From assembly GCA_011947345.1 (NCBI GenBank), contig JAAVTG010000365.1, forward strand, positions 41,859 to 105,858: DNA of 64,000 bases, given 5' to 3'. The position numbers and the translations under genes are program-made. The DNA is from Phytophthora quininea (lineage: Eukaryota; Oomycota; Peronosporomycetes; Peronosporales; Peronosporaceae). The notes beneath the pieces are model-generated. The model was not told where the DNA came from, did not search any database, and saw only the letters and a program-made list of their open reading frames with translations. Below are positions 4,703 to 57,248 of this stretch, in pieces (positions within the stretch are counted from its first letter, which is position 1; every line of letters begins with the position of its first letter).

Positions 4703-4724
4703 GCGTCTTCTTGAAGAGAGGTCA

Positions 4725-5569: not shown

Positions 5570-5875
5570 TGTAGTGTAGATTACCAGCCATGCCCAGCCA
5601 GCCGCAGTGGTGGCGACTGGATGGTCTCGTGCACATCAATTCGTAACGCGAGCCAGGATGACATGGTATCGCAATACGTGATGACCTCCGAGTAGATAAC
5701 GATATTTGTGTTGACACGACTGTCAACCACCCAACTCCGTGCTCGGGGCACGGAATCCCCAAACGATAGACAAGCTCATTGTATCTCACTTGTCGATTAG
5801 CATCTAATAGACTATCGGCCAATTTAGGGAGCTTCGCTGACTCCCCATCGTGTCTTCATACCTGCAGACACTACA
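5570..5875 (+). repeat. 5' LTR of E2
   Basis: It begins TGTAGTGTAGATT and ends CAGACACTACA, so it has TG...CA termini. Compared with the 3' LTR I count seven substitutions and one indel in about 306 bp. Six of the seven show T here against C in the other copy. Confidence 0.9.
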
Positions 5876-5911
5876 AAGATATCTTTAGCAGTAAACTGCT
5901 GGATCGTGAAG

Positions 5912-6517
5912 ATGGCCAACACGCGATCACAACGCGTGGCCCAACAACCAAGTGATGACACCGGCGCCAGTGCAAATGCATCCAGAGGCAACCAAGGCAT
6001 CTCATCAAGCACTTCAGTGAGAAGGCGCCAAACTAGTGCTGCCAGAATCGTCCAGAACACGACGCCACTCTTCACGCCGCTGTTGCCGCCACGTATCACC
6101 AGCACTTCACATGCTGCGCTGGTGCAATGGCGCAAGGATCGCCGTGAGTACGAGGAGACGGCTCGGAACCGCGCGAAGGACGGCGCGACGGACGTCATCA
6201 CGTCAATCAAGGCAACGTTTGATCAAGGACTTCTGAAACTTTGGTGCCGGCTCCGTTGGCGCATGTCGATCGACGACGTCACCGATGTCCACATTTTGGC
6301 AGAAGTCGACAAGATCATCGAGTCAGTGAAGAACAACAGCGTTCCCGACATTGACCACGAGATGCGTGCCAGGCTACGCATGGATCTCAAGGAGACCGAT
6401 GTCAACGAACGAGTCATACAGTACTTCAAGCTGTGTCATGACATTATCGACGACAACGGTTGGAGCTCTTTTTCCGTGATGACACTGGAAGAAAGCAGTT
6501 ATGCCGCATCCTGCTAG
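5912..6517 (+). CDS. gag: E2 Gag, N-terminal part
   Basis: The likely start is the ATG at 5912, giving MANTRSQRVAQQ; the in-frame GTG six bases earlier is less likely. The first 60 residues are low-complexity Ser/Thr/Ala/Arg. They are followed by a charged helical region (VQWRKDRREYEETARNRAK) and a Gag-like domain with many acidic residues. The conserved frame is lost near 6460, where one T appears to be missing after DDNG; the protein then continues in the frame of the next entry. The last 18 or so residues before the TAG are therefore out-of-frame sequence. No CCHC knuckle lies in this part. Confidence 0.75.
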   Translation: MANTRSQRVAQQPSDDTGASANASRGNQGISSSTSVRRRQTSAARIVQNTTPLFTPLLPPRITSTSHAALVQWRKDRREYEETARNRAKDGATDVITSIKATFDQGLLKLWCRLRWRMSIDDVTDVHILAEVDKIIESVKNNSVPDIDHEMRARLRMDLKETDVNERVIQYFKLCHDIIDDNGWSSFSVMTLEESSYAASC

Positions 6518-9500: not shown

Positions 9501-10470
9501 GGCACAGTCGATTCGGAGCCCCGCCGGTGTGGGTTAGTGATAACGGTAGGCACCTTAAAAACGAGGTGGTGACCGAGCTATCCCGGCGACTCAAGACGCG
9601 CCAGAAATTTACGGTCGCTTACAGCCCATGGATAAGCGGGTCGGTAGAGCGTGTCAATCGTGATGTGCTACAAGTTTTGCGTGCGATGATGTTGGAGTAC
9701 AAGATCTCTACCAAGGACTGGGTCTACCTAGTTCCGCTCGTGCAGTCGAGCCTTAACCATACTGCTATGCCATCACTCGGCAACCGAGCTCCCATGGAGC
9801 TATTCACGGGGCTGCCATGTCCGACGCCCCTGGCCGAGTTCTACGACGCCAGCACCAAGAAGCTGGTTAAGCTGCCGCAAACAACAGCTGCGATCTCTGA
9901 GCACCTGGCCACATTGCGCTCAAGCTTGCGAGAGATGCACAAGCCCGTTGCCGACCAGCGCCTCAAGCAGCGCCTCCTCAACAAGAAAAGGGAGCGGGGC
10001 GAGAACACCGTCAACTTTGACGTGGGGACTTCGTCCTCCGCTCCCGTGTTGATGAGAAGAAAGGCAACAAGCTCCTCGTCACATGGCAAGGACCCTACAA
10101 GGTGGTCCGAGCGGACTCTCACCCGTTCCGAGTGAGCCATCTCCTCACAGGAGATGAGCTAGATGTCCACCCGTCACGTCTTAAGTTCTACATGGACAAT
10201 AGTTTGGACGTGACCGAGGAGATACTCGAACATGTGGCTGCCCAGGGCATCATATTGGCCATCGATCAGCTTAGAAAGCATCGATGGAACTCCTCCATCA
10301 ACGACTACGAGATACTAGTGGGCTGGAAAGGCCTAGAGTCTGTAGAAGACTCGTGGGAACCGCTGACTTCCCTAGCTAAAAAAGTCAATGTTCTACTAGG
10401 TCAGTACATCCAAAAACAGGATGCCAAGGTACGCAAGTACTGGACAAGCGTTCATACCAAATTTCAATAA
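6460..10470 (+). pseudogene. pol: E2 Gag C-terminus and Pol polyprotein (broken)
   Basis: Domains in order: a Lys/Arg-rich Gag tail; a zinc knuckle CPHCEGMHWLSEC (CX2CX3HX4C, one residue shorter than usual); a protease with PYCADTGADRTAVS; RT with RWASPVLPVTKRG and IIWIDDLLLF; RNase H with FTDASDTGFAV; integrase with HCGAQGHRG, CLLC, LHWDF, VWVSDNGRHLKNE and SGSVERVNRD; and a chromodomain (YEILVGWKGLESVEDSWEPL) near the C-terminus. Breaks are a TAA at 7891-7893 between FGLFDL and KGFWQL, and frameshifts near 8232, 8848 and 10025. The protease and the integrase D-D-E residues are intact; polymerase and chromodomain are cut off from them by these breaks. Confidence 0.87.
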
Positions 10471-17757: not shown

Positions 17758-18725
17758 TTGTCAAATTATCTGTCGAGAGCAGCCATGCGTGCGGCACCAC
17801 ACCACAACCACCTGCCTAGTCCTTCCGCACCCTTACCCAGTCCACCGCAACACTCGATTCACACTCCAGCAATCGCAGCAATGACGCCCGGTCAGAGCGT
17901 AGCTCAAATATCTGCTGTGCAATTGGCAATGCAGCACCAATCCTGGGTCCAACTCTTTCAAGCATCCGTCGGAGTCCTCCGTCGGCAGCAAGTTATGGCG
18001 AACCCACCCTCTCTAGCAGACCTCGTGGATCCAGTCATCACTCTACCGCCTGTAGGGGGCGATTACGATTTTGTCGCCCCCCCGAATGGCCAGCGAGCGT
18101 CATCCCGATCGAGTTTAGCGTTTTCTCAACGGCCCACCCATACCCCGTCACGAAGCGGTCGCCCGACGCGGACGACGAGTGCGGCTGCTCTGTGCTGTGT
18201 TCGAGATGGCGGAAGCTTCGTGTCCAGCTCGTGCTTGAACGTCGCTACCTACACGGTGTGCGACGAGTTTAATTGTTTGCTGGGGTCAGAGTGCGGCAAC
18301 AGGATGAAGCCACGCTATCCTCTCGAGCTGGTCGACACGCGCATGGGACTTGGTGTCGTCTGCAACCAAACCATTCCAAGCGGCGCGTTCATCATCGAGT
18401 ACGTAGGAGAAGTGTTTTGGAACCTGACGCTGTTAGTCGAGATGACAAGCGATATCAAGTCCAGCTTCGTACCAAGACAGGTTGGGGTGGTGGCGTCTCT
18501 GTGTTCGTGGACGCGCTCCGCTGCGGCAATGAGAGCCGCTTCATCAACCATTCCTGCCGGCCCAACTGCGCGCTGTACGAGTGCGTCTCGGGGAACTCGA
18601 CGAGAGTGGGCATCTTCGCCGTCACGGACATCCCACCACTGCAGGAGCTGACGTTCCGCTATCGTCAGCACAACCACAATCTTTTTGAGTGCCGTTGCGC
18701 GCAGCCGAACTGCTCTACCAAGTAG
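17758..18725 (+). pseudogene. SET-domain protein lysine methyltransferase (frameshifted)
   Basis: A SET enzyme transfers methyl groups from S-adenosylmethionine to lysine, usually on histone H3. The first ~150 codons are low complexity (Pro/Ser/His, then a TPGQSVAQISAVQLAMQHQ segment). Next comes an AWS-like Cys region (CDEFNCLLGSECGNR), then SET motifs: GLGVVCNQTIPSGAFIIEYVGEV, the cofactor and substrate loop RFINHSCRPNC at 18537-18569, ELTFRYRQH (usually ELTFDY) and a post-SET CRCAQPNC. Layout fits the SET2/ASH1 class. Between EYVGEV and LEPDAVSRDD near 18415 the frame changes by one, splitting the SET domain; a short intron there is not evident. The D-to-R change in ELTFRY is also unusual. 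Confidence 0.75.
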
Positions 18726-21457: not shown

Positions 21458-22000
21458 TGGGGCATGCGCTCATCGTCAGTAAGCGCTCTACACTCAAACT
21501 ACAAACATTATCACCATACCGAGTGTCCAGCAGCACCGTCAACTCAACCGCACGACCTACAGCATCACAACGTTCCCGAGCGCAAGCTGACAGGTCTCAG
21601 CACGCCCGATACACCTTGCATGGGTCTGGCGGCAGTGATAACTTCCGGCCAGTCTGACCTCGTGCTACGGGCCGGTCGTGCTGCGATCGCGTCACGACGG
21701 GAACGCGAAATGGTTTGCACACGTCCGGACATCGAAGACGCGCGGCGACACCCGCCAACACCCGCCAACACCCGCCTACGCCGCCGCTTGACGGTGCGTG
21801 CGTCCATCAGATGGGGAAGAGAAAGCGTCGCTGCGGCTGCATCGCTGTGGCTTCGGTACAGCTACGCGATCGGTGGTCTGGCCGGGCGAGTGGGTGGTCA
21901 TGGCGTGCAAGAAACTGGAGCGACGGCAGCGCGTGCAGAGAGCCGCGGGCAAGCGCTGTAGGGCGTGTTCGGTCGCAGTGGCGGCGCGCAGCAAAGGAAT

Positions 22001-22081
22001 GTCAGCTGTGGGATTTGAACCCACGCGTTCGAAAACATTACGACCTGAACGTAACCCCTTAGACCACTCGGGCAAACTGAC
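22001..22081 (-). tRNA. tRNA-Leu(CAG) copy 1
   Basis: A class II tRNA. The acceptor stem GTCAGTT pairs with AGCTGAC (one G-U), and the D arm contains CCCGAGTGGT. The anticodon stem TTACG/CGTAA encloses loop TTCAGGT with anticodon CAG. The long variable arm is GTT-TTCG-AAC, and the T arm GTGGG-TTCAAAT-CCCAC supplies a good B box (GGTTCAAATCC). CCA is not encoded, as in eukaryotes, and there is no intron. The gene body contains an internal TTTT in the variable arm. It reads CUG codons. Its spacer carries the AAGCTG marker and three CACCCGCC repeats. Confidence 0.95.
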
Positions 22082-22759
22082 GGGTTAGTGCCACACCAAC
22101 CGCACATAAACAAAAATCGCGCAAAACACACCAACAACCAAACATCACGCCATGCCCGCACACGTGCCGCAGCCGCCGTCCTCGACAGCCCATGCCGCGC
22201 TCGCTACACTTCTGTCACACCAGTGCATCCCCAGTATCCAGCAATATTTCCGCCGCTTCGCCGTCTCATCGCTCACCTGCAGCCGCCACGGATGGCCCAC
22301 GTCGCTACGTCCTAGCGTCACAGCGTCACAGCGTCACAGCGTTCCCGAGCGCAAGTTGACAGGTCTCAGCACGCCCGATACACCTTGCATGGGTCTGGCG
22401 GCAGTGATAACTTCCGGCCAGTCTGACCTCGTGCTACGGGCCGGTCGTGCTGCGATCGCGTCACGACGGGAACGCGAAATGGTTTGCACACGTCCGGACA
22501 TCGAAGACGCGCGGCGACACCCGCCAACACCCGCCTACGCCGCCGCTTGACGGTGCGTGCGTCCATCAGATGGGGAAGAGAAAGCGTCGCTGCGGCTGCA
22601 TCGCTGTGGCTTCGGTACAGCTACGCGATCGGTGGTCTGGCCGGGCGAGTGGGTGGTCATGGCCTGCAAGAAACTGGAGCGACGGCAGCGCGTGCAGAGA
22701 GCCGCGGGCAAGCGCTGTAGGGCGTGTTCGGTCGCAGTGGCGGCGCGCAGCAAAGGAAT

Positions 22760-22840
22760 GTCAGCTGTGGGATTTGAACCCACGCGTTCGAAAACATTAC
22801 GACCTGAACGTAACCCCTTAGACCACTCGGGCAAACTGAC
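22760..22840 (-). tRNA. tRNA-Leu(CAG) copy 2
   Basis: Body identical to copy 1 by eye. This unit is shorter because its spacer has two rather than three CACCCGCC repeats. It has the CCTG rather than CGTG variant in the TCATGGC(C/G)TGCAAG site. Confidence 0.95.
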
Positions 22841-23528
22841 GGGTTAGTGCCACACCAACCGCACATAAACAAAAATCGCGCAAAACACACCAACAACCAA
22901 ACATCACGCCATGCCCGCACACGTGCCGCAGCCGCCGTCCTCGACAGCCCATGCCGCGCTCGCTACACTTCTGTCACACCAGTGCATCCCCAGTATCCAG
23001 CAATATTTCCGCCGCTTCGCCGTCTCATCGCTCACCTGCAGCCGCCACGGATGGCCCACGTCGCTACGTCCTAGCGTCACAGCGTCACAGCGTCACAGCG
23101 TTCCCGAGCGCAAGTTGACAGGTCTCAGCACGCCCGATACACCTTGCATGGGTCTGGCGGCAGTGATAACTTCCGGCCAGTCTGACCTCGTGCTACGGGC
23201 CGGTCGTGCTGCGATCGCGTCACGACGGGAACGCGAAATGGTTTGCACACGTCCGGACATCGAAGACGCGCGGCGACACCCGCCAACACCCGCCAACACC
23301 CGCCTACGCCGCCGCTTGACGGTGCGTGCGTCCATCAGATGGGGAAGAGAAAGCGTCGCTGCGGCTGCATCGCTGTGGCTTCGGTACAGCTACGCGATCG
23401 GTGGTCTGGCCGGGCGAGTGGGTGGTCATGGCCTGCAAGAAACTGGAGCGACGGCAGCGCGTGCAGAGAGCCGCGGGCAAGCGCTGTAGGGCGTGTTCGG
23501 TCGCAGTGGCGGCGCGCAGCAAAGGAAT

Positions 23529-23609
23529 GTCAGCTGTGGGATTTGAACCCACGCGTTCGAAAACATTACGACCTGAACGTAACCCCTTAGACCACTCGGG
23601 CAAACTGAC
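23529..23609 (-). tRNA. tRNA-Leu(CAG) copy 3
   Basis: Body identical by eye. The spacer has three CACCCGCC repeats, CCTG variant, and three 8-bp GCGTCACA repeats. Confidence 0.95.
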
Positions 23610-24297
23610 GGGTTAGTGCCACACCAACCGCACATAAACAAAAATCGCGCAAAACACACCAACAACCAAACATCACGCCATGCCCGCACACGTGCCGCAG
23701 CCGCCGTCCTCGACAGCCCATGCCGCGCTCGCTACACTTCTGTCACACCAGTGCATCCCCAGTATCCAGCAATATTTCCGCCGCTTCGCCGTCTCATCGC
23801 TCACCTGCAGCCGCCACGGATGGCCCACGTCGCTACGTCCTAGCGTCACAGCGTCACAGCGTCACAGCGTTCCCAAGCGCAAGTTGACAGGTCTCAGCAC
23901 GCCCGATACACCTTGCATGGGTCTGGCGGCAGTGATAACTTCCGGCCAGTCTGACCTCGTGCTACGGGCCGGTCGTGCTGCGATCGCGTCACGACGGGAA
24001 CGCGAAATGGTTTGCACACGTCCGGACATCGAAGACGCGCGGCGACACCCGCCAACACCCGCCAACACCCGCCTACGCCGCCGCTTGACGGTGCGTGCGT
24101 CCATCAGATGGGGAAGAGAAAGCGTCGCTGCGGCTGCATCGCTGTGGCTTCGGTACAGCTACGCGATCGGTGGTCTGGCCGGGCGAGTGGGTGGTCATGG
24201 CCTGCAAGAAACTGGAGCGACGGCAGCGCGTGCAGAGAGCCGCGGGCAAGCGCTGTAGGGCGTGTTCGGTCGCAGTGGCGGCGCGCAGCAAAGGAAT

Positions 24298-24378
24298 GTC
24301 AGCTGTGGGATTTGAACCCACGCGTTCGAAAACATTACGACCTGAACGTAACCCCTTAGACCACTCGGGCAAACTGAC
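24298..24378 (-). tRNA. tRNA-Leu(CAG) copy 4
   Basis: Body identical by eye. The spacer has CCCAAGCGC instead of CCCGAGCGC, a variant shared only with copy 21. Confidence 0.95.
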
Positions 24379-25066
24379 GGGTTAGTGCCACACCAACCGC
24401 ACATAAACAAAAATCGCGCAAAACACACCAACAACCAAACATCACGCCATGCCCGCACACGTGCCGCAGCCGCCGTCCTCGACAGCCCATGCCGCGCTCG
24501 CTACACTTCTGTCACACCAGTGCATCCCCAGTATCCAGCAATATTTCCGCCGCTTCGCCGTCTCATCGCTCACCTGCAGCCGCCACGGATGGCCCACGTC
24601 GCTACGTCCTAGCGTCACAGCGTCACAGCGTCACAGCGTTCCCGAGCGCAAGTTGACAGGTCTCAGCACGCCCGATACACCTTGCATGGGTCTGGCGGCA
24701 GTGATAACTTCCGGCCAGTCTGACCTCGTGCTACGGGCCGGTCGTGCTGCGATCGCGTCACGACGGGAACGCGAAATGGTTTGCACACGTCCGGACATCG
24801 AAGACGCGCGGCGACTCCCGCCAACACCCGCCAACACCCGCCTACGCCGCCGCTTGACGGTGCGTGCGTCCATCAGATGGGGAAGAGAAAGCGTCGCTGC
24901 GGCTGCATCGCTGTGGCTTCGGTACAGCTACGCGATCGGTGGTCTGGCCGGGCGAGTGGGTGGTCATGGCCTGCAAGAAACTGGAGCGACGGCAGCGCGT
25001 GCAGAGAGCCGCGGGCAAGCGCTGTAGGGCGTGTTCGGTCGCAGTGGCGGCGCGCAGCAAAGGAAT

Positions 25067-25147
25067 GTCAGCTGTGGGATTTGAACCCACGCGTTCGAAA
25101 ACATTACGACCTGAACGTAACCCCTTAGACCACTCGGGCAAACTGAC
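25067..25147 (-). tRNA. tRNA-Leu(CAG) copy 5
   Basis: Body identical by eye. The spacer has GCGACTCCCGCC at the edge of the CACCCGCC repeats, shared only with copy 12. Confidence 0.95.
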
Positions 25148-25836
25148 GGGTTAGTGCCACACCAACCGCACATAAACAAAAATCGCGCAAAACACACCAA
25201 CAACCAAACATCACGCCATGCCCGCACACGTGCCGCAGCCGCCGTCCTCGACAGCCCATGCCGCGCTCGCTACACTTCTGTCACACCAGTGCATCCCCAG
25301 TATCCAGCAATATTTCCGCCGCTTCGCCGTCTCATCGCTCACCTGCAGCCGCCACGGATGGCCCACGTCGCTACGTCCTAGCGTCACAGCGTCACAGCGT
25401 CACAGCGTTCCCGAGCGCAAGTTGACAGGTCTCAGCACGCCCGATACACCTTGCATGGGTCTGGCGGCAGTGATAACTTCCGGCCAGTCTGACCTCGTGC
25501 TACGGGCCGGTCGTGCTGCGATCGCGTCACGACGGGAACGCGAAATGGTTTGCACACGTCCGGACATCGAAGACGCGCGGCGAGCTCGCGCCAACACCCG
25601 CCAACACCCGCCTACGCCGCCGCTTGACGGTGCGTGCGTCCATCAGATGGGGAAGAGAAAGCGTCGCTGCGGCTGCATCGCTGTGGCTTCGGTACAGCTA
25701 CGCGATCGGTGGTCTGGCCGGGCGAGTGGGTGGTCATGGCCTGCAAGAAACTGGAGCGACGGCAGCGCGTGCAGAGAGCCGCGGGCAAGCGCTGTAGGGC
25801 GTGTTCGGTCGCAGTGGCGGCGCGCAGCAAAGGAAT

Positions 25837-25917
25837 GTCAGCTGTGGGATTTGAACCCACGCGTTCGAAAACATTACGACCTGAACGTAACCCCTTAGAC
25901 CACTCGGGCAAACTGAC
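25837..25917 (-). tRNA. tRNA-Leu(CAG) copy 6
   Basis: Body identical by eye. This is the first unit with the GCGAGCTCGCGCC edge variant, combined with CCTG. Confidence 0.95.
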
Positions 25918-26607
25918 GGGTTAGTGCCACACCAACCGCACATAAACAAAAATCGCGCAAAACACACCAACAACCAAACATCACGCCATGCCCGCACACG
26001 TGCCGCAGCCGCCGTCCTCGACAGCCCATGCCGCGCTCGCTACACTTCTGTCACACCAGTGCATCCCCAGTATCCAGCAATATTTCCGCCGCTTCGCCGT
26101 CTCATCGCTCACCTGCAGCCGCCACGGATGGCCCACGTCGCTACGTCCTAGCGTCACTCAGCGTCACAGCGTCACAGCGTTCCCGAGCGCAAGTTGACAG
26201 GTCTCAGCACGCCCGATACACCTTGCATGGGTCTGGCGGCAGTGATAACTTCCGGCCAGTCTGACCTCGTGCTACGGGCCGGTCGTGCTGCGATCGCGTC
26301 ACGACGGGAACGCGAAATGGTTTGCACACGTCCGGACATCGAAGACGCGCGGCGAGCTCGCGCCAACACCCGCCAACACCCGCCTACGCCGCCGCTTGAC
26401 GGTGCGTGCGTCCATCAGATGGGAAGAGAAAGCGTCGCTGCGGCTGCATCGCTGTGGCTTCGGTACAGCTACGCGATCGGTGGTCTGGCCGGGCGAGTGG
26501 GTGGTCATGGCGTGCAAGAAACTGGAGCGACGGCAGCGCGTGCAGAGAGCCGCGGGCAAGCGCTGTAGGGCGTGTTCGGTCGCAGTGGCGGCGCGCAGCA
26601 AAGGAAT

Positions 26608-26688
26608 GTCAGCTGTGGGATTTGAACCCACGCGTTCGAAAACATTACGACCTGAACGTAACCCCTTAGACCACTCGGGCAAACTGAC
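26608..26688 (-). tRNA. tRNA-Leu(CAG) copy 7
   Basis: Body identical by eye. The spacer has a 2-bp insertion in the 8-bp repeat tract (GTCACTCAGC) and a G deleted from GATGGGGAAG, shared with copy 14. Confidence 0.95.
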
Positions 26689-27377
26689 GGGTTAGTGCCA
26701 CACCAACCGCACATAAACAAAAATCGCGCAAAACACACCAACAACCAAACATCACGCCATGCCCGCACACGTGCCGCAGCCGCCGTCCTCGACAGCCCAT
26801 GCCGCGCTCGCTACACTTCTGTCACACCAGTGCATCCCCAGTATCCAGCAATATTTCCGCCGCTTCGCCGTCTCATCGCTCACCTGCAGCCGCCACGGAT
26901 GGCCCACGTCGCTACGTCCTAGCGTCACAGCGTCACAGCGTCACAGCGTTCCCGAGCGCAAGTTGACAGGTCTCAGCACGCCCGATACACCTTGCATGGG
27001 TCTGGCGGCAGTGATAACTTCCGGCCAGTCTGACCTCGTGCTACGGGCCGGTCGTGCTGCGATCGCGTCACGACGGGAACGCGAAATGGTTTGCACACGT
27101 CCGGACATCGAAGACGCGCGGCGAGCTCGCGCCAACACCCGCCAACACCCGCCTACGCCGCCGCTTGACGGTGCGTGCGTCCATCAGATGGGGAAGAGAA
27201 AGCGTCGCTGCGGCTGCATCGCTGTGGCTTCGGTACAGCTACGCGATCGGTGGTCTGGCCGGGCGAGTGGGTGGTCATGGCGTGCAAGAAACTGGAGCGA
27301 CGGCAGCGCGTGCAGAGAGCCGCGGGCAAGCGCTGTAGGGCGTGTTCGGTCGCAGTGGCGGCGCGCAGCAAAGGAAT

Positions 27378-27458
27378 GTCAGCTGTGGGATTTGAACCCA
27401 CGCGTTCGAAAACATTACGACCTGAACGTAACCCCTTAGACCACTCGGGCAAACTGAC
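27378..27458 (-). tRNA. tRNA-Leu(CAG) copy 8
   Basis: Body identical by eye. The spacer has the GAGCTCGCG edge and CGTG variant, with three 8-bp repeats. Confidence 0.95.
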
Positions 27459-28131
27459 GGGTTAGTGCCACACCAACCGCACATAAACAAAAATCGCGCA
27501 AAACACACCAACAACCAAACATCACGCCATGCCCGCACACGTGCCGCAGCCGCCGTCCTCGACAGCCCATGCCGCGCTCGCTACACTTCTGTCACACCAG
27601 TGCATCCCCAGTATCCAGCAATATTTCCGCCGCTTCGCCGTCTCATCGCTCACCTGCAGCCGCCACGGATGGCCCACGTCGCTACGTCCTAGCGTCACAG
27701 CGTTCCCGAGCGCAAGTTGACAGGTCTCAGCACGCCCGATACACCTTGCATGGGTCTGGCGGCAGTGATAACTTCCGGCCAGTCTGACCTCGTGCTACGG
27801 GCCGGTCGTGCTGCGATCGCGTCACGACGGGAACGCGAAATGGTTTGCACACGTCCGGACATCGAAGACGCGCGGCGAGCTCGCGCCAACACCCGCCAAC
27901 ACCCGCCTACGCCGCCGCTTGACGGTGCGTGCGTCCATCAGATGGGGAAGAGAAAGCGTCGCTGCGGCTGCATCGCTGTGGCTTCGGTACAGCTACGCGA
28001 TCGGTGGTCTGGCCGGGCGAGTGGGTGGTCATGGCGTGCAAGAAACTGGAGCGACGGCAGCGCGTGCAGAGAGCCGCGGGCAAGCGCTGTAGGGCGTGTT
28101 CGGTCGCAGTGGCGGCGCGCAGCAAAGGAAT

Positions 28132-28212
28132 GTCAGCTGTGGGATTTGAACCCACGCGTTCGAAAACATTACGACCTGAACGTAACCCCTTAGACCACTC
28201 GGGCAAACTGAC
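28132..28212 (-). tRNA. tRNA-Leu(CAG) copy 9
   Basis: Body identical by eye. The unit is 754 bp because only one GCGTCACA repeat remains, a state shared with the next two units. Confidence 0.95.
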
Positions 28213-28886
28213 GGGTTAGTGCCACACCAACCGCACATAAACAAAAATCGCGCAAAACACACCAACAACCAAACATCACGCCATGCCCGCACACGTGCCG
28301 CAGCCGCCGTCCTCGACAGCCCATGCCGCGCTCGCTACACTTCTGTCACACCAGTGCATCCCCAGTATCAGCAATATTTCCGCCGCTTCGCCGTCTCATC
28401 GCTCACCTGCAGCCGCCACGGATGGCCCACGTCGCTACGTCCTAGCGTCACAGCGTTTCCCGAGCGCAAGTTGACAGGTCTCAGCACGCCCGATACACCT
28501 TGCATGGGTCTGGCGGCAGTGATAACTTCCGGCCAGTCTGACCTCGTGCTACGGGCCGGTCGTGCTGCGATCGCGTCACGACGGGAACGCGAAATGGTTT
28601 GCACACGTCCGGACATCGAAGACGCGCGGCGAGCTCGCGCCAACACCCGCCAACACCCGCCTACGCCGCCGCTTGACGGTGCGTGCGTCCATCAGATGGG
28701 GAAGAGAAAGCGTCGCTGCGGCTGCATCGCTGTGGCTTCGGTACAGCTACGCGATCGGTGGTCTGGCCGGGCGAGTGGGTGGTCATGGCGTGCAAGAAAC
28801 TGGAGCGACGGCAGCGCGTGCAGAGAGCCGCGGGCAAGCGCTGTAGGGCGTGTTCGGTCGCAGTGGCGGCGCGCAGCAAAAGGAAT

Positions 28887-28967
28887 GTCAGCTGTGGGAT
28901 TTGAACCCACGCGTTCGAAAACATTACGACCTGAACGTAACCCCTTAGACCACTCGGGCAAACTGAC
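28887..28967 (-). tRNA. tRNA-Leu(CAG) copy 10
   Basis: Body identical by eye. Downstream of the 3' end this copy has TTTT (CATTCCTTTTGC) where most copies have TTT, giving a minimal Pol III terminator. The spacer also has GTTTCCCG and a missing C in GTATCAGC. Confidence 0.95.
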
Positions 28968-29638
28968 GGGTTAGTGCCACACCAACCGCACATAAACAAA
29001 AATCGCGCAAAACACACCAACAACCAAACATCACGCCATGCCCGCACACGTGCCGCAGCCGCCGTCCTCGACAGCCCATGCCGCGCTCGCTACACTTCTG
29101 TCACACCAGTGCATCCCCAGTATCCAGCAATATTTCCGCCGCTTCGCCGTCTCATCGCTCACCTGCAGCCGCCACGGATGGCCCACGTCGCTACGTCCTA
29201 GCGTCACAGCGTTCCCGAGCGCAAGTTGACAGGTCTCAGCACGCCCATACACCTTGCATGGGTCTGGCGGCAGTGATAACTTCCGGCCAGTCTGACCTCG
29301 TGCTACGGGCCGGTCGTGCTGCGATCGCGTCACGACGGGAACGCGAAATGGTTTGCACACGTCGGACATCGAAGACGCGCGGCGAGCTCGCGCCAACACC
29401 CGCCAACACCCGCCTACGCCGCCGCTTGACGGTGCGTGCGTCCATCAGATGGGGAAGAGAAAGCGTCGCTGCGGCTGCATCGCTGTGGCTTCGGTACAGC
29501 TACGCGATCGGTGGTCTGGCCGGGCGAGTGGGTGGTCATGGCGTGCAAGAAACTGGAGCGACGGCAGCGCGTGCAGAGAGCCGCGGGCAAGCGCTGTAGG
29601 GCGTGTTCGGTCGCAGTGGCGGCGCGCAGCAAAGGAAT

Positions 29639-29719
29639 GTCAGCTGTGGGATTTGAACCCACGCGTTCGAAAACATTACGACCTGAACGTAACCCCTTAG
29701 ACCACTCGGGCAAACTGAC
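29639..29719 (-). tRNA. tRNA-Leu(CAG) copy 11
   Basis: Body identical by eye. The spacer has one 8-bp repeat and two single-base deletions (CGCCCATAC and CACGTCGGAC). Confidence 0.95.
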
Positions 29720-30407
29720 GGGTTAGTGCCACACCAACCGCACATAAACAAAAATCGCGCAAAACACACCAACAACCAAACATCACGCCATGCCCGCACA
29801 CGTGCCGCAGCCGCCGTCCTCGACAGCCCATGCCGCGCTCGCTACACTTCTGTCACACCAGTGCATCCCCAGTATCCAGCAATATTTCCGCCGCTTCGCC
29901 GTCTCATCGCTCACCTGCAGCCGCCACGGATGGCCCACGTCGCTACGTCCTAGCGTCACAGCGTCACAGCGTCACAGCGTTCCCGAGCGCAAGTTGACAG
30001 GTCTCAGCACGCCCGATACACCTTGCATGGGTCTGGCGGCAGTGATAACTTCCGGCCAGTCTGACCTCGTGCTACGGGCCGGTCGTGCTGCGATCGCGTC
30101 ACGACGGGAACGCGAAATGGTTTGCACACGTCCGGACATCGAAGACGCGCGGCGACTCCCGCCAACACCCGCCAACACCCGCCTACGCCGCCGCTTGACG
30201 GTGCGTGCGTCCATCAGATGGGGAAGAGAAAGCGTCGCTGCGGCTGCATCGCTGTGGCTTCGGTACAGCTACGCGATCGGTGGTCTGGCCGGGCGAGTGG
30301 GTGGTCATGGCGTGCAAGAAACTGGAGCGACGGCAGCGCGTGCAGAGAGCCGCGGGCAAGCGCTGTAGGGCGTGTTCGGTCGCAGTGGCGGCGCGCAGCA
30401 AAGGAAT

Positions 30408-30488
30408 GTCAGCTGTGGGATTTGAACCCACGCGTTCGAAAACATTACGACCTGAACGTAACCCCTTAGACCACTCGGGCAAACTGAC
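30408..30488 (-). tRNA. tRNA-Leu(CAG) copy 12
   Basis: Body identical by eye. The spacer returns to three 8-bp repeats and has the GCGACTCCCGCC edge of copy 5. Confidence 0.95.
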
Positions 30489-31174
30489 GGGTTAGTGCCA
30501 CACCAACCGCACATAAACAAAATCGCGCAAAACACACCAACAACCAAACATCACGCCATGCCCGCACACGTGCCGCAGCCGCCGTCCTCGACAGCCCATG
30601 CCGCGCTCCTACACTTCTGTCACACCAGTGCATCCCCAGTATCCAGCAATATTTCCGCCGCTTCGCCGTCTCATCGCTCACCTGCAGCCGCCACGGATGG
30701 CCCACGTCGCTACGTCCTAGCGTCACAGCGTCACAGCGTCACAGCGTTCCCGAGCGCAAGTTGACAGGTCTCAGCACGCCCGATACACCTTGCATGGGTC
30801 TGGCGGCAGTGATAACTTCCGGCCAGTCTGACCTCGTGCTACGGGCCGGTCGTGCTGCGATCGCGTCACGACGGGAACGCGAAATGGTTTGCACACGTCC
30901 GGACATCGAAGACGCGCGGCGAGCTCCGCCAACACCCGCCAACACCCGCCTACGCCGCCGCTTGACGGTGCGTGCGTCCATCAGATGGGGAAGAGAAAGC
31001 GTCGCTGCGGCTGCATCGCTGTGGCTTCGGTACAGCTACGCGATCGGTGGTCTGGCCGGGCGAGTGGGTGGTCATGGCGTGCAAGAAACTGGAGCGACGG
31101 CAGCGCGTGCAGAGAGCCGCGGGCAAGCGCTGTAGGGCGTGTTCGGTCGCAGTGGCGGCGCGCAGCAAAGGAAT

Positions 31175-31255
31175 GTCAGCTGTGGGATTTGAACCCACGC
31201 GTTCGAAAACATTACGACCTGAACGTAACCCCTTAGACCACTCGGGCAAACTGAC
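31175..31255 (-). tRNA. tRNA-Leu(CAG) copy 13
   Basis: Body identical by eye. The unit has ACAAAATCG (one A fewer), GCTCCTACAC (G lost) and a unique GAGCTCCGCC edge. Confidence 0.95.
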
Positions 31256-31936
31256 GGGTTAGTGCCACACCAACCGCACATAAACAAAAATCGCGCAAAA
31301 CACACCAACAACCAAACATCACGCCATGCCCGCACACGTGCCGCAGCCGCCGTCCTCGACAGCCCATGCCGCGCTCACTACACTTCTGTCACACCAGTGC
31401 ATCCCCAGTATCCAGCAATATTTCCGCCGCTTCGCCGTCTCATCGCTCACCTGCAGCCGCCACGGATGGCCCACGTCGCTACGTCCTAGCGTCACAGCGT
31501 CACAGCGTTTCCCGAGCGCAAGTTGACAGGTCTCAGCACGCCCGATACACCTTGCATGGGTCTGGCGGCAGTGATAACTTCCGGCCAGTCTGACCTCGTG
31601 CTACGGGCCGGTCGTGCTGCGATCGCGTCACGACGGGAACGCGAAATGGTTTGCACACGTCCGGACATCGAAGACGCGCGGCGAGCTCGCGCCAACACCC
31701 GCCAACACCCGCCTACGCCGCCGCTTGACGGTGCGTGCGTCCATCAGATGGGAAGAGAAAGCGTCGCTGCGGCTGCATCGCTGTGGCTTCGGTACAGCTA
31801 CGCGATCGGTGGTCTGGCCGGGCGAGTGGGTGGTCATGGCCTGCAAGAAACTGGAGCGACGGCAGCGCGTGCAGAGAGCCGCGGGCAAGCGCTGTAGGGC
31901 GTGTTCGGTCGCAGTGGCGGCGCGCAGCAAAGGAAT

Positions 31937-32017
31937 GTCAGCTGTGGGATTTGAACCCACGCGTTCGAAAACATTACGACCTGAACGTAACCCCTTAGAC
32001 CACTCGGGCAAACTGAC
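31937..32017 (-). tRNA. tRNA-Leu(CAG) copy 14
   Basis: Body identical by eye. The spacer has two 8-bp repeats, GTTTCCCG, the GATGGGAAG deletion and CCTG. Confidence 0.95.
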
Positions 32018-32703
32018 GGGTTAGTGCCACACCAACCGCACATAAACAAAAATCGCGCAAAACACACCAACAACCAAACATCACGCCATGCCCGCACGTG
32101 CCGCAGCCGCCGTCCTCGACAGCCCATGCCGCGCTCGCTACACTTCTGTCACACCAGTGCATCCCCAGTATCCAGCAATATTTCCGCCGCTTCGCCGTCT
32201 CATCGCTCACCTGCAGCCGCCACGGATGGCCCACGTCGCTACGTCCTAGCGTCACAGCGTCACAGCGTCACAGCGTTCCCGAGCGCAAGTTGACAGGTCT
32301 CAGCACGCCCGATACACCTTGCATGGGTCTGGCGGCAGTGATAACTTCCGGCCAGTCTGACCTCGTGCTACGGGCCGGTCGTGCTGCGATCGCGTCACGA
32401 CGGGAACGCGAAATGGTTTGCACACGTCCGGACATCGAAGACGCGCGGCGCTCGCGCCAACACCCGCCAACACCCGCCTACGCCGCCGCTTGACGGTGCG
32501 TGCGTCCATCAGATGGGGAAGAGAAAGCGTCGCTGCGGCTGCATCGCTGTGGCTTCGGTACAGCTACGCGATCGGTGGTCTGGCCGGGCGAGTGGGTGGT
32601 CATGGCCTGCAAGAAACTGGAGCGACGGCAGCGCGTGCAGAGAGCCGCGGGCAAGCGCTGTAGGGCGTGTTCGGTCGCAGTGGCGGCGCGCAGCAAAAGG
32701 AAT

Positions 32704-32784
32704 GTCAGCTGTGGGATTTGAACCCACGCGTTCGAAAACATTACGACCTGAACGTAACCCCTTAGACCACTCGGGCAAACTGAC
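32704..32784 (-). tRNA. tRNA-Leu(CAG) copy 15
   Basis: Body identical by eye. This is the second copy with TTTT just downstream of the 3' end. Its spacer lost an AC in CCCGCACGTG and has a GCGCTCGCGCC edge. Confidence 0.95.
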
Positions 32785-33473
32785 GGGTTAGTGCCACACC
32801 AACCGCACATAAACAAAAATCGCGCAAAACACACCAACAACCAAACATCACGCCATGCCCGCACACGTGCCGCAGCCGCCGTCCTCGACAGCCCATGCCG
32901 CGCTCGCTACACTTCTGTCACACCAGTGCATCCCCAGTATCCAGCAATATTTCCGCCGCTTCGCCGTCTCATCGCTCACCTGCAGCCGCCACGGATGGCC
33001 CACGTCGCTACGTCCTAGCGTCACAGCGTCACAGCGTCACAGCGTTCCCGAGCGCAAGTTGACAGGTCTCAGCACGCCCGATACACCTTGCATGGGTCTG
33101 GCGGCAGTGATAACTTCCGGCCAGTCTGACCTCGTGCTACGGGCCGGTCGTGCTGCGATCGCGTCACGACGGGAACGCGAAATGGTTTGCACACGTCCGG
33201 ACATCGAAGACGCGCGGCGAGCTCGCGCCAACACCCGCCAACACCCGCCTACGCCGCCGCTTGACGGTGCGTGCGTCCATCAGATGGGGAAGAGAAAGCG
33301 TCGCTGCGGCTGCATCGCTGTGGCTTCGGTACAGCTACGCGATCGGTGGTCTGGCCGGGCGAGTGGGTGGTCATGGCCTGCAAGAAACTGGAGCGACGGC
33401 AGCGCGTGCAGAGAGCCGCGGGCAAGCGCTGTAGGGCGTGTTCGGTCGCAGTGGCGGCGCGCAGCAAAGGAAT

Positions 33474-33554
33474 GTCAGCTGTGGGATTTGAACCCACGCG
33501 TTCGAAAACATTACGACCTGAACGTAACCCCTTAGACCACTCGGGCAAACTGAC
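33474..33554 (-). tRNA. tRNA-Leu(CAG) copy 16
   Basis: Body identical by eye. The spacer has GAGCTCGCG, CCTG and three 8-bp repeats. Confidence 0.95.
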
Positions 33555-34242
33555 GGGTTAGTGCCACACCAACCGCACATAAACAAAAATCGCGCAAAAC
33601 ACACCAACAACCAAACATCACGCCATGCCCGCACACGTGCCGCAGCCGCCGTCCTCGACAGCCCATGCCGCGCTCCTACACTTCTGTCACACCAGTGCAT
33701 CCCCAGTATCCAGCAATATTTCCGCCGCTTCGCCGTCTCATCGCTCACCTGCAGCCGCCACGGATGGCCCACGTCGCTAGCGTCACAGCGTCACAGCGTC
33801 ACAGCGTCACAGCGTTCCCGAGCGCAAGTTGACAGGTCTCAGCACGCCCGATACACCTTGCATGGGTCTGGCGGCAGTGATAACTTCCGGCCAGTCTGAC
33901 CTCGTGCTACGGGCCGGTCGTGCTGCGATCGCGTCACGACGGGAACGCGAAATGGTTTGCACACGTCCGGACATCGAAGACGCGCGGCGACACGCGCCAA
34001 CACCCGCCAACACCCGCCTACGCCGCCGCTTGACGGTGCGTGCGTCCATCAGATGGGGAAGAGAAAGCGTCGCTGCGGCTGCATCGCTGTGGCTTCGGTA
34101 CAGCTACGCGATCGGTGGTCTGGCCGGGCGAGTGGGTGGTCATGGCCTGCAAGAAACTGGAGCGACGGCAGCGCGTGCAGAGAGCCGCGGGCAAGCGCTG
34201 TAGGGCGTGTTCGGTCGCAGTGGCGGCGCGCAGCAAAGGAAT

Positions 34243-34323
34243 GTCAGCTGTGGGATTTGAACCCACGCGTTCGAAAACATTACGACCTGAACGTAACCCC
34301 TTAGACCACTCGGGCAAACTGAC
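34243..34323 (-). tRNA. tRNA-Leu(CAG) copy 17
   Basis: Body identical by eye. The unit has four 8-bp repeats, the only such case, and lacks the ACGTCCTA stretch before them. It shares GCTCCTACAC with copy 13. Confidence 0.95.
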
Positions 34324-35012
34324 GGGTTAGTGCCACACCAACCGCACATAAACAAAAATCGCGCAAAACACACCAACAACCAAACATCACGCCATGCCCG
34401 CACACGTGCCGCAGCCGCCGTCCTCGACAGCCCATGCCGCGCTCGCTACACTTCTGTCACACCAGTGCATCCCCAGTATCCAGCAATATTTCCGCCGCTT
34501 CGCCGTCTCATCGCTCACCTGCAGCCGCCACGGATGGCCCACGTCGCTACGTCCTAGCGTCACAGCGTCACAGCGTCACAGCGTTCCCGAGCGCAAGCTG
34601 ACAGGTCTCAGCACGCCCGATACACCTTGCATGGGTCTGGCGGCAGTGATAACTTCCGGCCAGTCTGACCTCGTGCTACGGGCCGGTCGTGCTGCGATCG
34701 CGTCACGACGGGAACGCGAAATGGTTTGCACACGTCCGGACATCGAAGACGCGCGGCGAGCTCGCGCCAACACCCGCCAACACCCGCCTACGCCGCCGCT
34801 TGACGGTGCGTGCGTCCATTAGATGGGGAAGAGAAAGCGTCGCTGCGGCTGCATCGCTGTGGCTTCGGTACAGCTACGCGATCGGTGGTCTGGCCGGGCG
34901 AGTGGGTGGTCATGGCGTGCAAGAAACTGGAGCGACGGCAGCGCGTGCAGAGAGCCGCGGGCAAGCGCTGTAGGGCGTGTTCGGTCGCAGTGGCGGCGCG
35001 CAGCAAAGGAAT

Positions 35013-35093
35013 GTCAGCTGTGGGATTTGAACCCACGCGTTCGAAAACATTACGACCTGAACGTAACCCCTTAGACCACTCGGGCAAACTGAC
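35013..35093 (-). tRNA. tRNA-Leu(CAG) copy 18
   Basis: Body identical by eye. The spacer has the AAGCTG marker of copy 1 and a unique CCATTAGATG substitution. Confidence 0.95.
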
Positions 35094-35782
35094 GGGTTAG
35101 TGCCACACCAACCGCACATAAACAAAAATCGCGCAAAACACACCAACAACCAAACATCACGCCATGCCCGCACACGTGCCGCAGCCGCCGTCCTCGACAG
35201 CCCATGCCGCGCTCGCTACACTTCTGTCACACCAGTGCATCCCCAGTATCCAGCAATATTTCCGCCGCTTCGCCGTCTCATCGCTCACCTGCAGCCGCCA
35301 CGGATGGCCCACGTCGCTACGTCCTAGCGTCACAGCGTCACAGCGTCACAGCGTTCCCGAGCGCAAGCTGACAGGTCTCAGCACGCCCGATACACCTTGC
35401 ATGGGTCTGGCGGCAGTGATAACTTCCGGCCAGTCTGACCTCGTGCTACGGGCCGGTCGTGCTGCGATCGCGTCACGACGGGAACGCGAAATGGTTTGCA
35501 CACGTCCGGACATCGAAGACGCGCGGCGAGCTCGCGCCAACACCCGCCAACACCCGCCTACGCCGCCGCTTGACGGTGCGTGCGTCCATCAGATGGGGAA
35601 GAGAAAGCGTCGCTGCGGCTGCATCGCTGTGGCTTCGGTACAGCTACGCGATCGGTGGTCTGGCCGGGCGAGTGGGTGGTCATGGCGTGCAAGAAACTGG
35701 AGCGACGGCAGCGCGTGCAGAGAGCCGCGGGCAAGCGCTGTAGGGCGTGTTCGGTCGCAGTGGCGGCGCGCAGCAAAGGAAT

Positions 35783-35863
35783 GTCAGCTGTGGGATTTGA
35801 ACCCACGCGTTCGAAAACATTACGACCTGAACGTAACCCCTTAGACCACTCGGGCAAACTGAC
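35783..35863 (-). tRNA. tRNA-Leu(CAG) copy 19
   Basis: Body identical by eye. AAGCTG and GAGCTCGCG are combined as in copy 18, without its substitution. Confidence 0.95.
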
Positions 35864-36551
35864 GGGTTAGTGCCACACCAACCGCACATAAACAAAAATC
35901 GCGCAAAACACACCAACAACCAAACATCACGCCATGCCCGCACACGTGCCGCAGCCGCCGTCCTCGACAGCCCATGCCGCGCTCGCTACACTTCTGTCAC
36001 ACCAGTGCATCCCCAGTATCCAGCAATATTTCCGCCGCTTCGCCGTCTCATCGCTCACCTGCAGCCGCCACGGATGGCCCACGTCGCTACGTCCTAGCGT
36101 CACAGCGTCACAGCGTCACAGCGTTCCCGAGCGCAAGTTGACAGGTCTCAGCACGCCCGATACACCTTGCATGGGTCTGGCGGCAGTGATAACTTCCGGC
36201 CAGTCTGACCTCGTGCTACGGGCCGGTCGTGCTGCGATCGCGTCACGACGGGAACGCGAAATGGTTTGCACACGTCCGGACATCGAAGACGCGCGGCGAC
36301 ACCCGCCAACACCCGCCAACACCCGCCTACGCCGCCGCTTGACGGTGCGTGCGTCCATCAGATGGGGAAGAGAAAGCGTCGCTGCGGCTGCATCGCTGTG
36401 GCTTCGGTACAGCTACGCGATCGGTGGTCTGGCCGGGCGAGTGGGTGGTCATGGCGTGCAAGAAACTGGAGCGACGGCAGCGCGTGCAGAGAGCCGCGGG
36501 CAAGCGCTGTAGGGCGTGTTCGGTCGCAGTGGCGGCGCGCAGCAAAGGAAT

Positions 36552-36632
36552 GTCAGCTGTGGGATTTGAACCCACGCGTTCGAAAACATTACGACCTGAA
36601 CGTAACCCCTTAGACCACTCGGGCAAACTGAC
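36552..36632 (-). tRNA. tRNA-Leu(CAG) copy 20
   Basis: Body identical by eye. Three CACCCGCC repeats return here, as in copies 1, 3 and 4, but with the CGTG variant. Confidence 0.95.
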
Positions 36633-37313
36633 GGGTTAGTGCCACACCAACCGCACATAAACAAAAATCGCGCAAAACACACCAACAACCAAACATCACG
36701 CCATGCCCGCACACGTGCCGCAGCCGCCGTCCTCGACAGCCCATGCCGCGCTCGCTACACTTCTGTCACACCAGTGCATCCCCAGTATCCAGCAATATTT
36801 CCGCCGCTTCGCCGTCTCATCGCTCACCTGCAGCCGCCACGGATGGCCCACGTCCTAGCGTCCTAGCGTCACAGCGTCACAGCGTTCCCAAGCGCAAGTT
36901 GACAGGTCTCAGCACGCCCGATACACCTTGCATGGGTCTGGCGGCAGTGATAACTTCCGGCCAGTCTGACCTCGTGCTACGGGCCGGTCGTGCTGCGATC
37001 GCGTCACGACGGGAACGCGAAATGGTTTGCACACGTCCGGACATCGAAGACGCGCGGCGAGCTCGCGCCAACACCCGCCAACACCCGCCTACGCCGCCGC
37101 TTGACGGTGCGTGCGTCCATCAGATGGGGAAGAGAAAGCGTCGCTGCGGCTGCATCGCTGTGGCTTCGGTACAGCTACGCGATCGGTGGTCTGGCCGGGC
37201 GAGTGGGTGGTCATGGCGTGCAAGAAACTGGAGCGACGGCAGCGCGTGCAGAGAGCCGCGGGCAAGCGCTGTAGGGCGTGTTCGGTCGCAGTGGCGGCGC
37301 GCAGCAAAGGAAT

Positions 37314-37394
37314 GTCAGCTGTGGGATTTGAACCCACGCGTTCGAAAACATTACGACCTGAACGTAACCCCTTAGACCACTCGGGCAAACTGAC
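37314..37394 (-). tRNA. tRNA-Leu(CAG) copy 21 (last)
   Basis: Body identical by eye. The spacer has a duplicated GTCCTAGC and the CCCAAGCGC variant of copy 4. The array ends about 115 bp to the right, after a partial unit. Confidence 0.95.
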
Positions 37395-37736
37395 GGGTTA
37401 GTGCCACACCAACCGCACATAAACAAAAATCGCGCAAAACACACCAACAACCAAACATCACGCCATGCCCGCACACGTGCCGCAGCCGCCGTCCTCAACA
37501 GCCCATGATGGGCGCTTCATCTTAATTGGGTGTAACATATATGCTTAGTGCAATTTCGTATAGTTTTTTGCAATAGTTACTACGTAATTGACATCTGATT
37601 GAAGACTTACCGAGTCGTGTTTGTATAGCATCGCTTTCGTGATTGGCAGGTACTTAGGACAATTATCTGTTTCTTGTATAGGCGTCCCCGTGAGAGTGCA
37701 TGCACCTTGAAGATTTTAGACGATTTTTCAGATGAG

Positions 37737-38135: not shown

Positions 38136-38136
38136 G

Positions 38137-38207
38137 CGTCCTCGAGGGACTCGAACCCCAATCCCCGCCTTCGGAGGGCGATGCCTTATCCATTAGGCCA
38201 CGCGGAC
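38137..38207 (-). tRNA. tRNA-Arg(CCG) copy 1, T-stem one base short
   Basis: It is identical to copy 2 except for one missing C in the 3' strand of the T stem (GAGTCCCTCG against GAGTCCCCTCG). This leaves four instead of five bases between T loop and acceptor stem. Anticodon loop CTCCGAA gives anticodon CCG. The A box and B box (GGTTCGAGTCC) are present. The acceptor stem has a G-A mismatch at the fifth pair in both copies. The short T stem may impair this copy; a sequence error is the alternative. Confidence 0.88.
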
Positions 38208-51500: not shown

Positions 51501-51742
51501 TTGTAAATATGGTCGACTCCACTCCAGATAGAACTTATCCGGTGTCGAAGACCTTTACGGTCGCTTTAGCGTTGAGGAAGCGAGTTGGAGAGCAACAGGA
51601 AGCTGCTCGACGACAAGATGTAAACGAGATCTTGTGACTGTTGGAGAAAATAACAAAGTGTATTTGCTTTAAACCCCCGCTTTGTGGTTTCTGTTGCTAC
51701 TTTTGTCCGTTTCAACACCACAGTTCTAATGGGACTGTGACA
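51501..51742 (-). repeat. 3' LTR of E3 (left copy)
   Basis: On the minus strand it begins TGTCACAGTCCCATTAG. It differs from the right copy by GAAGACC/GAAGGCC, GTCGCTT/GTCACTT and ATAACAAAG/ATAACGAAG (left/right). At two of the three sites the right copy, and at two of three sites this copy, agree with the solo LTR. Confidence 0.92.
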
Positions 51743-57243: not shown

Positions 57244-57248
57244 TTTTG
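57244..57248. repeat. Right target-site duplication of E3 (TTTTG)
   Basis: It matches 51496-51500. Confidence 0.85.

Follow-up and report, generated by a model that had tools for sequence, protein, structure and literature searches.

Homologous tandem arrays of identical tRNA-Leu(CAG) genes at two loci of the Phytophthora quininea genome

A head-to-tail array of 21 tRNA-Leu(CAG) genes

The window analysed here, a stretch of 64,000 nucleotides of contig JAAVTG010000365.1 from Phytophthora quininea, carries a long tandem array of tRNA genes. ARAGORN reports 21 tRNAs at positions 22000-37394, all on the minus strand, and Rfam independently returns 21 hits with RF00005, scoring 52.3 bits where the gathering threshold is 29. 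ARAGORN names all of them as Leu with the anticodon CAG, and their 82-nt bodies are identical in 21 of 21 cases. The genes follow each other head-to-tail, one per unit, with start-to-start spacings of 752-771 bp (n=20), and homology to the unit spans positions 21562-37507, comprising 20 full units and a partial unit at either edge. The first-pass annotation, which had proposed about 21 identical minus-strand tRNA-Leu(CAG) genes at 21561..37508 with one gene per ~769-bp unit, is thereby confirmed as to extent, gene content and spacing. The oomycete nature of the host is apparent from protein matches (36-53% identity), four of seven being to Phytophthora, namely the four that bear a species name. 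The features are listed below; all tRNA genes were called by both ARAGORN and Rfam, the array extent rests additionally on unit homology, and C659 designates the contig bearing a second array.

21562-37507, minus strand: whole tRNA-Leu(CAG) array, 21 genes
21562-21999, minus strand: left edge, partial unit, spacer only; same unit position as the C659 array edge
22000-22081, minus strand: tRNA-Leu(CAG) 1
22759-22840, minus strand: tRNA-Leu(CAG) 2
23528-23609, minus strand: tRNA-Leu(CAG) 3
24297-24378, minus strand: tRNA-Leu(CAG) 4
25066-25147, minus strand: tRNA-Leu(CAG) 5
25836-25917, minus strand: tRNA-Leu(CAG) 6
26607-26688, minus strand: tRNA-Leu(CAG) 7
27377-27458, minus strand: tRNA-Leu(CAG) 8
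28131-28212, minus strand: tRNA-Leu(CAG) 9
28886-28967, minus strand: tRNA-Leu(CAG) 10
29638-29719, minus strand: tRNA-Leu(CAG) 11
30407-30488, minus strand: tRNA-Leu(CAG) 12
31174-31255, minus strand: tRNA-Leu(CAG) 13
31936-32017, minus strand: tRNA-Leu(CAG) 14
32703-32784, minus strand: tRNA-Leu(CAG) 15
33473-33554, minus strand: tRNA-Leu(CAG) 16
34242-34323, minus strand: tRNA-Leu(CAG) 17
35012-35093, minus strand: tRNA-Leu(CAG) 18
35782-35863, minus strand: tRNA-Leu(CAG) 19
36551-36632, minus strand: tRNA-Leu(CAG) 20
37313-37394, minus strand: tRNA-Leu(CAG) 21
37395-37507, minus strand: right edge, partial unit; same unit position as the C659 array edge
38136-38207, minus strand: tRNA-Arg(CCG), neighbour of the array; position kept at C659
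38493-38566, plus strand: tRNA-Arg(CCG), opposite-direction neighbour; position kept at C659

Retrotransposon genes lie on both flanks of the array, and the GC content ranges from 0.52 to 0.55 across the four 2-kb steps left of 22 kb and from 0.46 to 0.52 across the four right of 38 kb. In several units a long ORF runs on the plus strand, opposite to the tRNA gene. A gene hidden in the spacer is disfavoured, since the one spacer ORF scanned has no Pfam match and Rfam reports no family besides tRNA above threshold in the window.

The tRNA-Leu(CAG) cloverleaf is recognised by the covariance model and by ARAGORN, and an A73 and a long variable arm are discernible by eye in the sequence; the minimum-energy single-strand fold is not a cloverleaf. 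The body holds a B box, GGTTCAAATCC, matching the consensus GGTTCRANTCC. Upstream, a 60-bp flank contains CGATTTTTG, which starts 38 nt before the gene. Gene 4 serves as an example of both flanks:

24379-24438, minus strand: 60-bp 5' flank; the consensus units of both arrays are identical here
24283-24296, minus strand: 3' end region; T3 only, TTCCTTTGC

This T3-only arrangement is found in 19 of the 21 genes of the window, the other two having a T4. The 19 genes, devoid of a T4-or-longer terminator just downstream, have just TTCCTTT there, the next T4 lying 612-645 nt further, and the corresponding sequence in the C659 array is TTCTTTT (18 of 20 genes). Among the matches listed, 17 of 47 tRNAs at 13 other loci also lack a T4 within 60 nt. 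Since other tRNA families of the genome share this absence, it is less peculiar to the window array, and the idea that the missing terminator is an oddity of this array is weakened.

A homologous array on a second contig and homogenisation of the units

The first-pass annotation had suggested looking for the unit at other loci, and a homologous array was indeed found. A search of the 87.2 Mb genome with an 81-base pattern, allowing up to 3 mismatches, reports 41 tRNA-Leu(CAG) genes at two places, 21 in the window and 20 on C659. All 41 matches are exact, against 0 in the control, so chance matching is of no concern, and none of the 41 is a copy with 1-3 mismatches. Badly decayed copies would escape this pattern; the search with the 770-bp unit, of which 38 of 46 candidates were scored, does not show any either. 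The tRNA-Leu(CAG) supply found in the genome therefore consists entirely of the two arrays. A SINE or another dispersed tRNA-derived retroposon is ruled out, as matches with up to 3 mismatches occur at these two loci only, both being head-to-tail arrays. C659 is the homologous locus, as indicated by its collinear flanks, matching array edges and matching Arg(CCG) pair. Its array comprises 20 genes plus a 4.2-kb insert, and the longer contig stretch with these 20 genes rules out that it is a two-unit remnant.

The mean substitution distance between units is 0.0032 in the window array and 0.0008 in the C659 array, versus 0.0407 between the two. The units are thus homogenised within each array and distinct between arrays, which supports the earlier suggestion that the array is a homogenised repeat with a Pol III gene in it. 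Spacers differ by 4.6% between the arrays, versus 11.1% for the adjoining single-copy DNA. Within the window, the 20 spacers comprise 19 distinct sequences; two short tandem repeats, the 8-bp AGCGTCAC and the 10-bp CCCGCCAACA, hold much of this variation, and substitutions occur at 14 alignment columns. The initial description of spacers varying at many sites was right in that the variation is real but overstated it, the spacers being nearly identical. By simple arithmetic, if 14 changed columns were scattered over ~790, a given 82 bp would be left untouched about 1 time in 5, so that an unchanged tRNA within the window array alone is not striking. Between the consensus units of the two arrays, the tRNA and the 60 bp upstream are without change: the probability is P = 0.020 for the 82-bp tRNA, P = 0.029 for the longest event-free stretch (145 bp), and P = 0.058 for the 60-bp flank tested by itself, values that assume changes spread evenly over the unit, an assumption violated by the short tandem repeats. 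Apart from this tRNA-bearing stretch, the longest identical runs shared by the two arrays measure 71 and 65 bp. In the window array, closeness of two units does not make them significantly more similar (Mantel r 0.09, p 0.20); a local exchange gradient is hence not supported, and a simple model of local exchange is not positively shown.

Codon use and the possible meaning of the arrays

Oomycetes possess very large tRNA gene sets. In P. quininea, 1,513 B-box-like matches were obtained versus 278 in a reversed control, and arrays also occur for Leu(AAG), Leu(CAA), Thr(TGT), Glu(CTC), Tyr(GTA), Gly(TCC/CCC), and Arg(ACG)-Gln-Gln. In the tRNA family search, 63 of 4,332 candidates were scored, and its matches on contig C389 seem to stem from an organelle genome and not from the nucleus. 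Leu(AAG) reaches 84 genes, twice the Leu(CAG) count, Leu(CAA) at least 37, about as many as Leu(CAG), and Leu(TAG), for a rarer codon, at least 5; Leu(CAG) thus represents 41 of the 167 Leu tRNA genes counted, the Leu(CAA) and Leu(TAG) numbers being lower bounds.

The arrays are very probably ordinary oomycete tandem tRNA arrays, made of supply genes that were multiplied and kept alike by exchange, with the tRNA under selection. Each 0.77-kb unit looks like a complete Pol III gene, with a tRNA body, an internal promoter, and the conserved 60-bp upstream stretch. Unequal crossing-over and gene conversion would account for the likeness of the multiplied units, and selection would preserve the tRNA sequence. 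The tRNA-Leu(CAG) genes are presumably transcribed; exchange is presumably the homogenising process, and dosage may be the target of selection.

A more specific proposal, put forward in the first-pass annotation, is a single-isoacceptor amplification raising dosage for CUG, the commonest Leu codon, for which CAG is the exact-match decoder. CTG accounts for 115 of 230 Leu codons (50%) in a small sample of seven elongation-factor sequences. However, Leu(CAG) makes up just 41 of the 167 genes counted, whereas the 84 Leu(AAG) genes serve about 28% of the sampled codons. With Leu(AAG) twice as numerous, Leu(CAA) about equal and other isotypes arrayed as well, the array is indeed of a single isoacceptor but a cause special to CUG is unlikely, and since copy number does not follow Leu codon use, fine-tuned dosage is weakened too. 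This disproportion would suit a satellite whose units multiply by tandem-repeat recombination, most copies being surplus and perhaps silenced while a few supply tRNA. The low count for Leu(TAG), which serves a rarer codon and has at least 5 genes, points the same way, as do the modest correlation in P. infestans (R = 0.41; PMC9584435, in excerpt) and the Arabidopsis SYY cluster, silent in most tissues (PMC12308677, in excerpt). Yet surplus genes should gather mutations unless homogenisation is fast, and none of the 41 genes has 1-3 mismatches although spacers and flanks have diverged, which makes a satellite possible but rather doubtful.

The B box in every unit would also fit a chromatin boundary or nuclear-organisation element made of many TFIIIC sites. 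Excerpts of Matson 2022 (PMC9584435) raise nuclear organisation as a question, those of PMC4041453 implicate a human tRNA tandem repeat as a boundary, and there is a small GC step, the left side being a little higher. Retrotransposon genes on either side of the array, and identical runs no longer than 71 and 65 bp outside the tRNA stretch, speak against such a role, which is very unlikely. Lastly, tandem repeats are error-prone in assembly and other arrays extend to contig ends (C33, 60,791 bases; C38, 79,505 bases), a sign that arrays strain this assembly; one or two real units might have been expanded by the assembler. The two contigs argue against this, since their separate arrays each show variants of their own and are bounded left and right by unique sequence, as do the 19 distinct spacers of the window array and P. 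infestans copy numbers that matched read depth (PMC9584435, in excerpt). For the array as such an artefact is highly improbable, the counts of 21 and 20 being those of the assembly.

A further reading is that the arrays are held near 20 copies with continued unit exchange, as the counts of 21 and 20, the matching edges, and the lower divergence of spacers than of flanks would suggest. In the window array, with its 19 of 21 genes devoid of a T4 terminator, each gene might then use the T-rich element upstream of its neighbour as a backstop terminator, promoter and terminator functions being common to neighbours and Pol III being passed along. This full scheme is quite improbable. The assembled pair of homologous arrays with private variants offers a compact place to measure the rate of unit exchange, and to study copy-number constancy and the handling of weak terminators by Pol III.

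Comparison with known tRNA arrays

This kind of array is already described in P. infestans (excerpts of PMC9584435), and its existence alone adds little. The matched copy number at two loci, the spacers less diverged than flanks, and the frequent T4 absence are possibly new; Leu(CAG) arrays and matched copy numbers of homologous oomycete arrays were not found in the open-licence literature surveyed. According to the same excerpts, ~64% of P. infestans tRNA genes belong to same-gene arrays, including tRNA-Leu(AAG), and repeats of monomeric arrays on a single chromosome are nearly identical. As in P. quininea, these arrays are single-isoacceptor and head-to-tail, with near-identical units of several hundred bp, those of the same isoacceptor at different places diverge, and copy number is poorly tied to codon use. 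In contrast, the present genome is another one (87 Mb), Leu(CAG) is not among the examples named in the excerpts, and the present comparison is made unit by unit between homologous arrays of 21 and 20 genes. Entamoeba, an unrelated lineage, also has tandem tRNA arrays with mostly uniform units and no link to codon use, which in E. histolytica cover over 10% of the genome, and some species have short tandem repeats between the tRNA genes; however, its units contain up to 5 tRNA genes instead of one (Tawari et al., PMC2652664). Tandem tRNA units likewise form the Arabidopsis Ser/Tyr (PMC12308677, in excerpt) and tRNA-Cys clusters, the latter with 0.4 kb units (PMC10701932), but from these sources the clusters appear as exceptions among dispersed genes, whereas arrays look common here. 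The human tandem tRNA repeat at 1q23.3 is, from the excerpted account (PMC4041453), GC-rich with 9-43 units that bind CTCF, and its non-tRNA part is mostly not conserved with mouse; its units measure 7.3 kb, unlike those of 752-771 bp in P. quininea.

The Leu(CAG) array and its neighbourhood

On the minus strand of the window, between 22000 and 37394, ARAGORN analysis reports 21 tRNA-Leu(CAG) genes, and Rfam concurs for 21/21 (52.3 bits each, for a gathering score of 29). The 82-nt tRNA bodies are identical in all 21 genes, as proposed by the first-pass annotation (about 21 identical minus-strand copies), with start-to-start distances of 752-771 bp (20 spacings). The same annotation described spacers variable at many sites, which holds in part: 67 columns vary among the 20 full window units in a first alignment and 61 in a joint alignment with a second array, yet only 14 of these 61 carry substitutions, many of the others falling in two short tandem repeats. 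The spacers are therefore homogenised too, and do not vary freely. The array is genuine and clearly bounded, belongs to an already known kind, and is best read as a homogenised tandem series of ordinary genes for tRNA supply. The window features are:

21562-37507, minus strand: Leu(CAG) repeat array (extent of homology to the unit)
2808-10135 and 51726-52925: fragments of LTR-retrotransposon genes (integrase, RNase H, chromodomain), one region to each side of the array
17758-18651: ORF weakly matching an AWS domain, below the Pfam cut-off
58707-62464: two adjacent ORFs, alike by eye

The AWS domain occurs in SET-domain histone methyltransferases. The first ORF of the adjacent pair, for which a Pfam scan returns no match, resembles Phytophthora hypothetical proteins and sits in the best-conserved flank block. 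A 682-aa window protein has seven matches, three of them without an organism name; the four that carry a species name come from Phytophthora (two from P. fragariae, one each from P. megakarya and P. cinnamomi; 36-53% identity), so that the host is taken to be a Phytophthora-like oomycete.

A homologous array on a second contig

A search of the whole genome (87.2 Mb, 993 contigs) with an 81-base tRNA pattern, allowing up to three mismatches, returns 41 Leu(CAG) places, all exact: 21 in the window and 20 in a second array on contig C659. The unit, whose presence at other loci had been raised at first pass, is found again there. In the C659 array, 18 genes are followed by a spacer that contains a 4.2-kb insert, and then by two further genes:

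C659:44007-48237: hAT-like transposon inside the sister array

This insert is bordered by a target duplication of 8 bp, identified by eye as GCCTACGC, and one of its ORFs encodes a hAT dimerisation domain, hence its assignment as a hAT-like transposon. Part of the insert also matches a PLP-dependent enzyme (PF00291), and may be a piece of a host gene acquired by the element.

Outside the arrays, the two loci align collinearly (about 87-96% identity) apart from insertions on either side, the array ends fall at identical unit positions on both sides, and a divergent tRNA-Arg(CCG) gene pair comes after both arrays. The loci are therefore homologous, and would represent either alleles or two halves of a hybrid genome. 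Uncollapsed haplotypes are a plausible source, since other presumed haplotype pairs are present in the assembly (98.1% identical over 3.1 kb, 97.4% over 3.6 kb, and 99.6% over 1.3 kb); the window/C659 locus has diverged further than these three.

Mean substitution distances are 0.0032 within the window array (20/20 units) and 0.0008 within the C659 array (18/19 intervals, the insert-bearing one being dropped), versus 0.0407 between arrays; units near-alike within arrays and diverged between them indicate concerted evolution. Unit position and similarity show no significant relation in the window array (Mantel r 0.09, p 0.20), which does not favour purely local exchange. The two consensus units differ by 35 events (30 substitutions, 5 gaps) over 791 columns, none of which falls in the tRNA body (P = 0.020) or within 60 bp upstream of it (P = 0.058). 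An event-free stretch of 145 bp is the longest (P = 0.029), ahead of segments of 71 and 65 bp, located elsewhere in the spacer, over which the units are identical. Spacers differ at 30/654 sites (4.6%), versus 186/1,678 (11.1%, p about 4e-7) in directly adjacent single-copy DNA and 737/8,662 (8.5%, p about 2e-4) in nine summed collinear flank blocks, a sum omitting a tenth block (57244-61955, with the 682-aa ORF) that differs by 3.2%. The spacer may be constrained, or the two arrays may still exchange units. With its near-equal copy number, common edges and spacers less diverged than flanks, the paired array may merit another look.

Pol III signals, other tRNA genes and known arrays

The B box of the Leu(CAG) genes is GGTTCAAATCC. 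At the 3' end, 19/21 window genes possess only TTCCTTT, the next T4 lying 612-645 nt downstream, and 2/21 have T4; the C659 genes exhibit TTCTTTT (18/20) or T3 (2/20). This T4/T3 terminator difference, nearly fixed between the arrays, may also deserve further attention. Among 47 listed tRNAs (46 distinct, two loci overlapping at one gene) from 13 other selected loci, 17 have no T4 in the next 60 nt (every examined copy of Leu(CAA), Arg(ACG) and Gly, together with 2/4 Glu and one Thr). Weak terminators are therefore common among the examined arrays and not peculiar to that of the window. Upstream, T-runs of at least four begin at -46 to -20 in 12/17 sequences (4.2 in shuffles, 0/2,000 reaching 12); since the two Leu(CAG) arrays and the two Arg(CCG) genes are part of this sample, and the interval was picked after some of the sequences had been seen, the possible enrichment is a lead.

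Genome-wide, the GGTTCRANTCC B-box pattern returns 1,513 matches versus 278 for the reversed control, suggesting more than 1,000 tRNA genes. Further arrays encode Thr(TGT), Glu(CTC), Tyr(GTA), alternating Gly(TCC/CCC), and Arg(ACG)-Gln(TTG)-Gln(CTG). Features on other contigs are:

C8:247807-257827: Tyr(GTA) array, 14 B-box matches spaced by exactly 770 bp
C752:1064723-1101573: Leu(AAG) array, with a strand switch at about 1078-1080 kb between two diverging blocks
C389, about 93-142 kb: mixed cluster of densely packed tRNA genes, in two copies about 36.6 kb apart

The four copies read in the C8 array are intron-bearing tRNA-Tyr(GTA). In the C752 array, five adjacent copies share a single-base difference close to the D arm. 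C389 appears to be an organelle genome in which some parts are duplicated.

The isoacceptor counts speak against a special amplification for CUG decoding, envisaged at first pass. Leu(AAG) has 84 genes within three mismatches (78 exact), Leu(CAA), assigned by ARAGORN in the loci examined, at least 37 places (38/46 candidates scored; 21 within three mismatches, the other 16 one base shorter), and Leu(TAG) at least five genes at 99-100% identity (40/94 candidates scored). CAG accounts for just 41/167 genes counted for these four, CAA and TAG being lower bounds, though CTG represents 115 of 230 sampled Leu codons (CTC 48, CTT 17, CTA 10, TTG 38, TTA 2). These codons come from seven elongation-factor sequences, each presumed haplotype pair being represented once (three partners were dropped), a small sample that includes organelle-type factors and two sequences with almost identical starts; it gives no hint of CAG over-supply.

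For P. infestans, in which tandem tRNA arrays are described, Matson et al. 2022 report 7,519 tRNA genes, propose unequal crossing-over, and raise nuclear organisation as a question (PMC9584435). Looser parallels to the window array exist in the tRNA arrays of Entamoeba (PMC2652664), the tRNA clusters of Arabidopsis (PMC12308677; PMC10701932) and a human tRNA repeat (PMC4041453).
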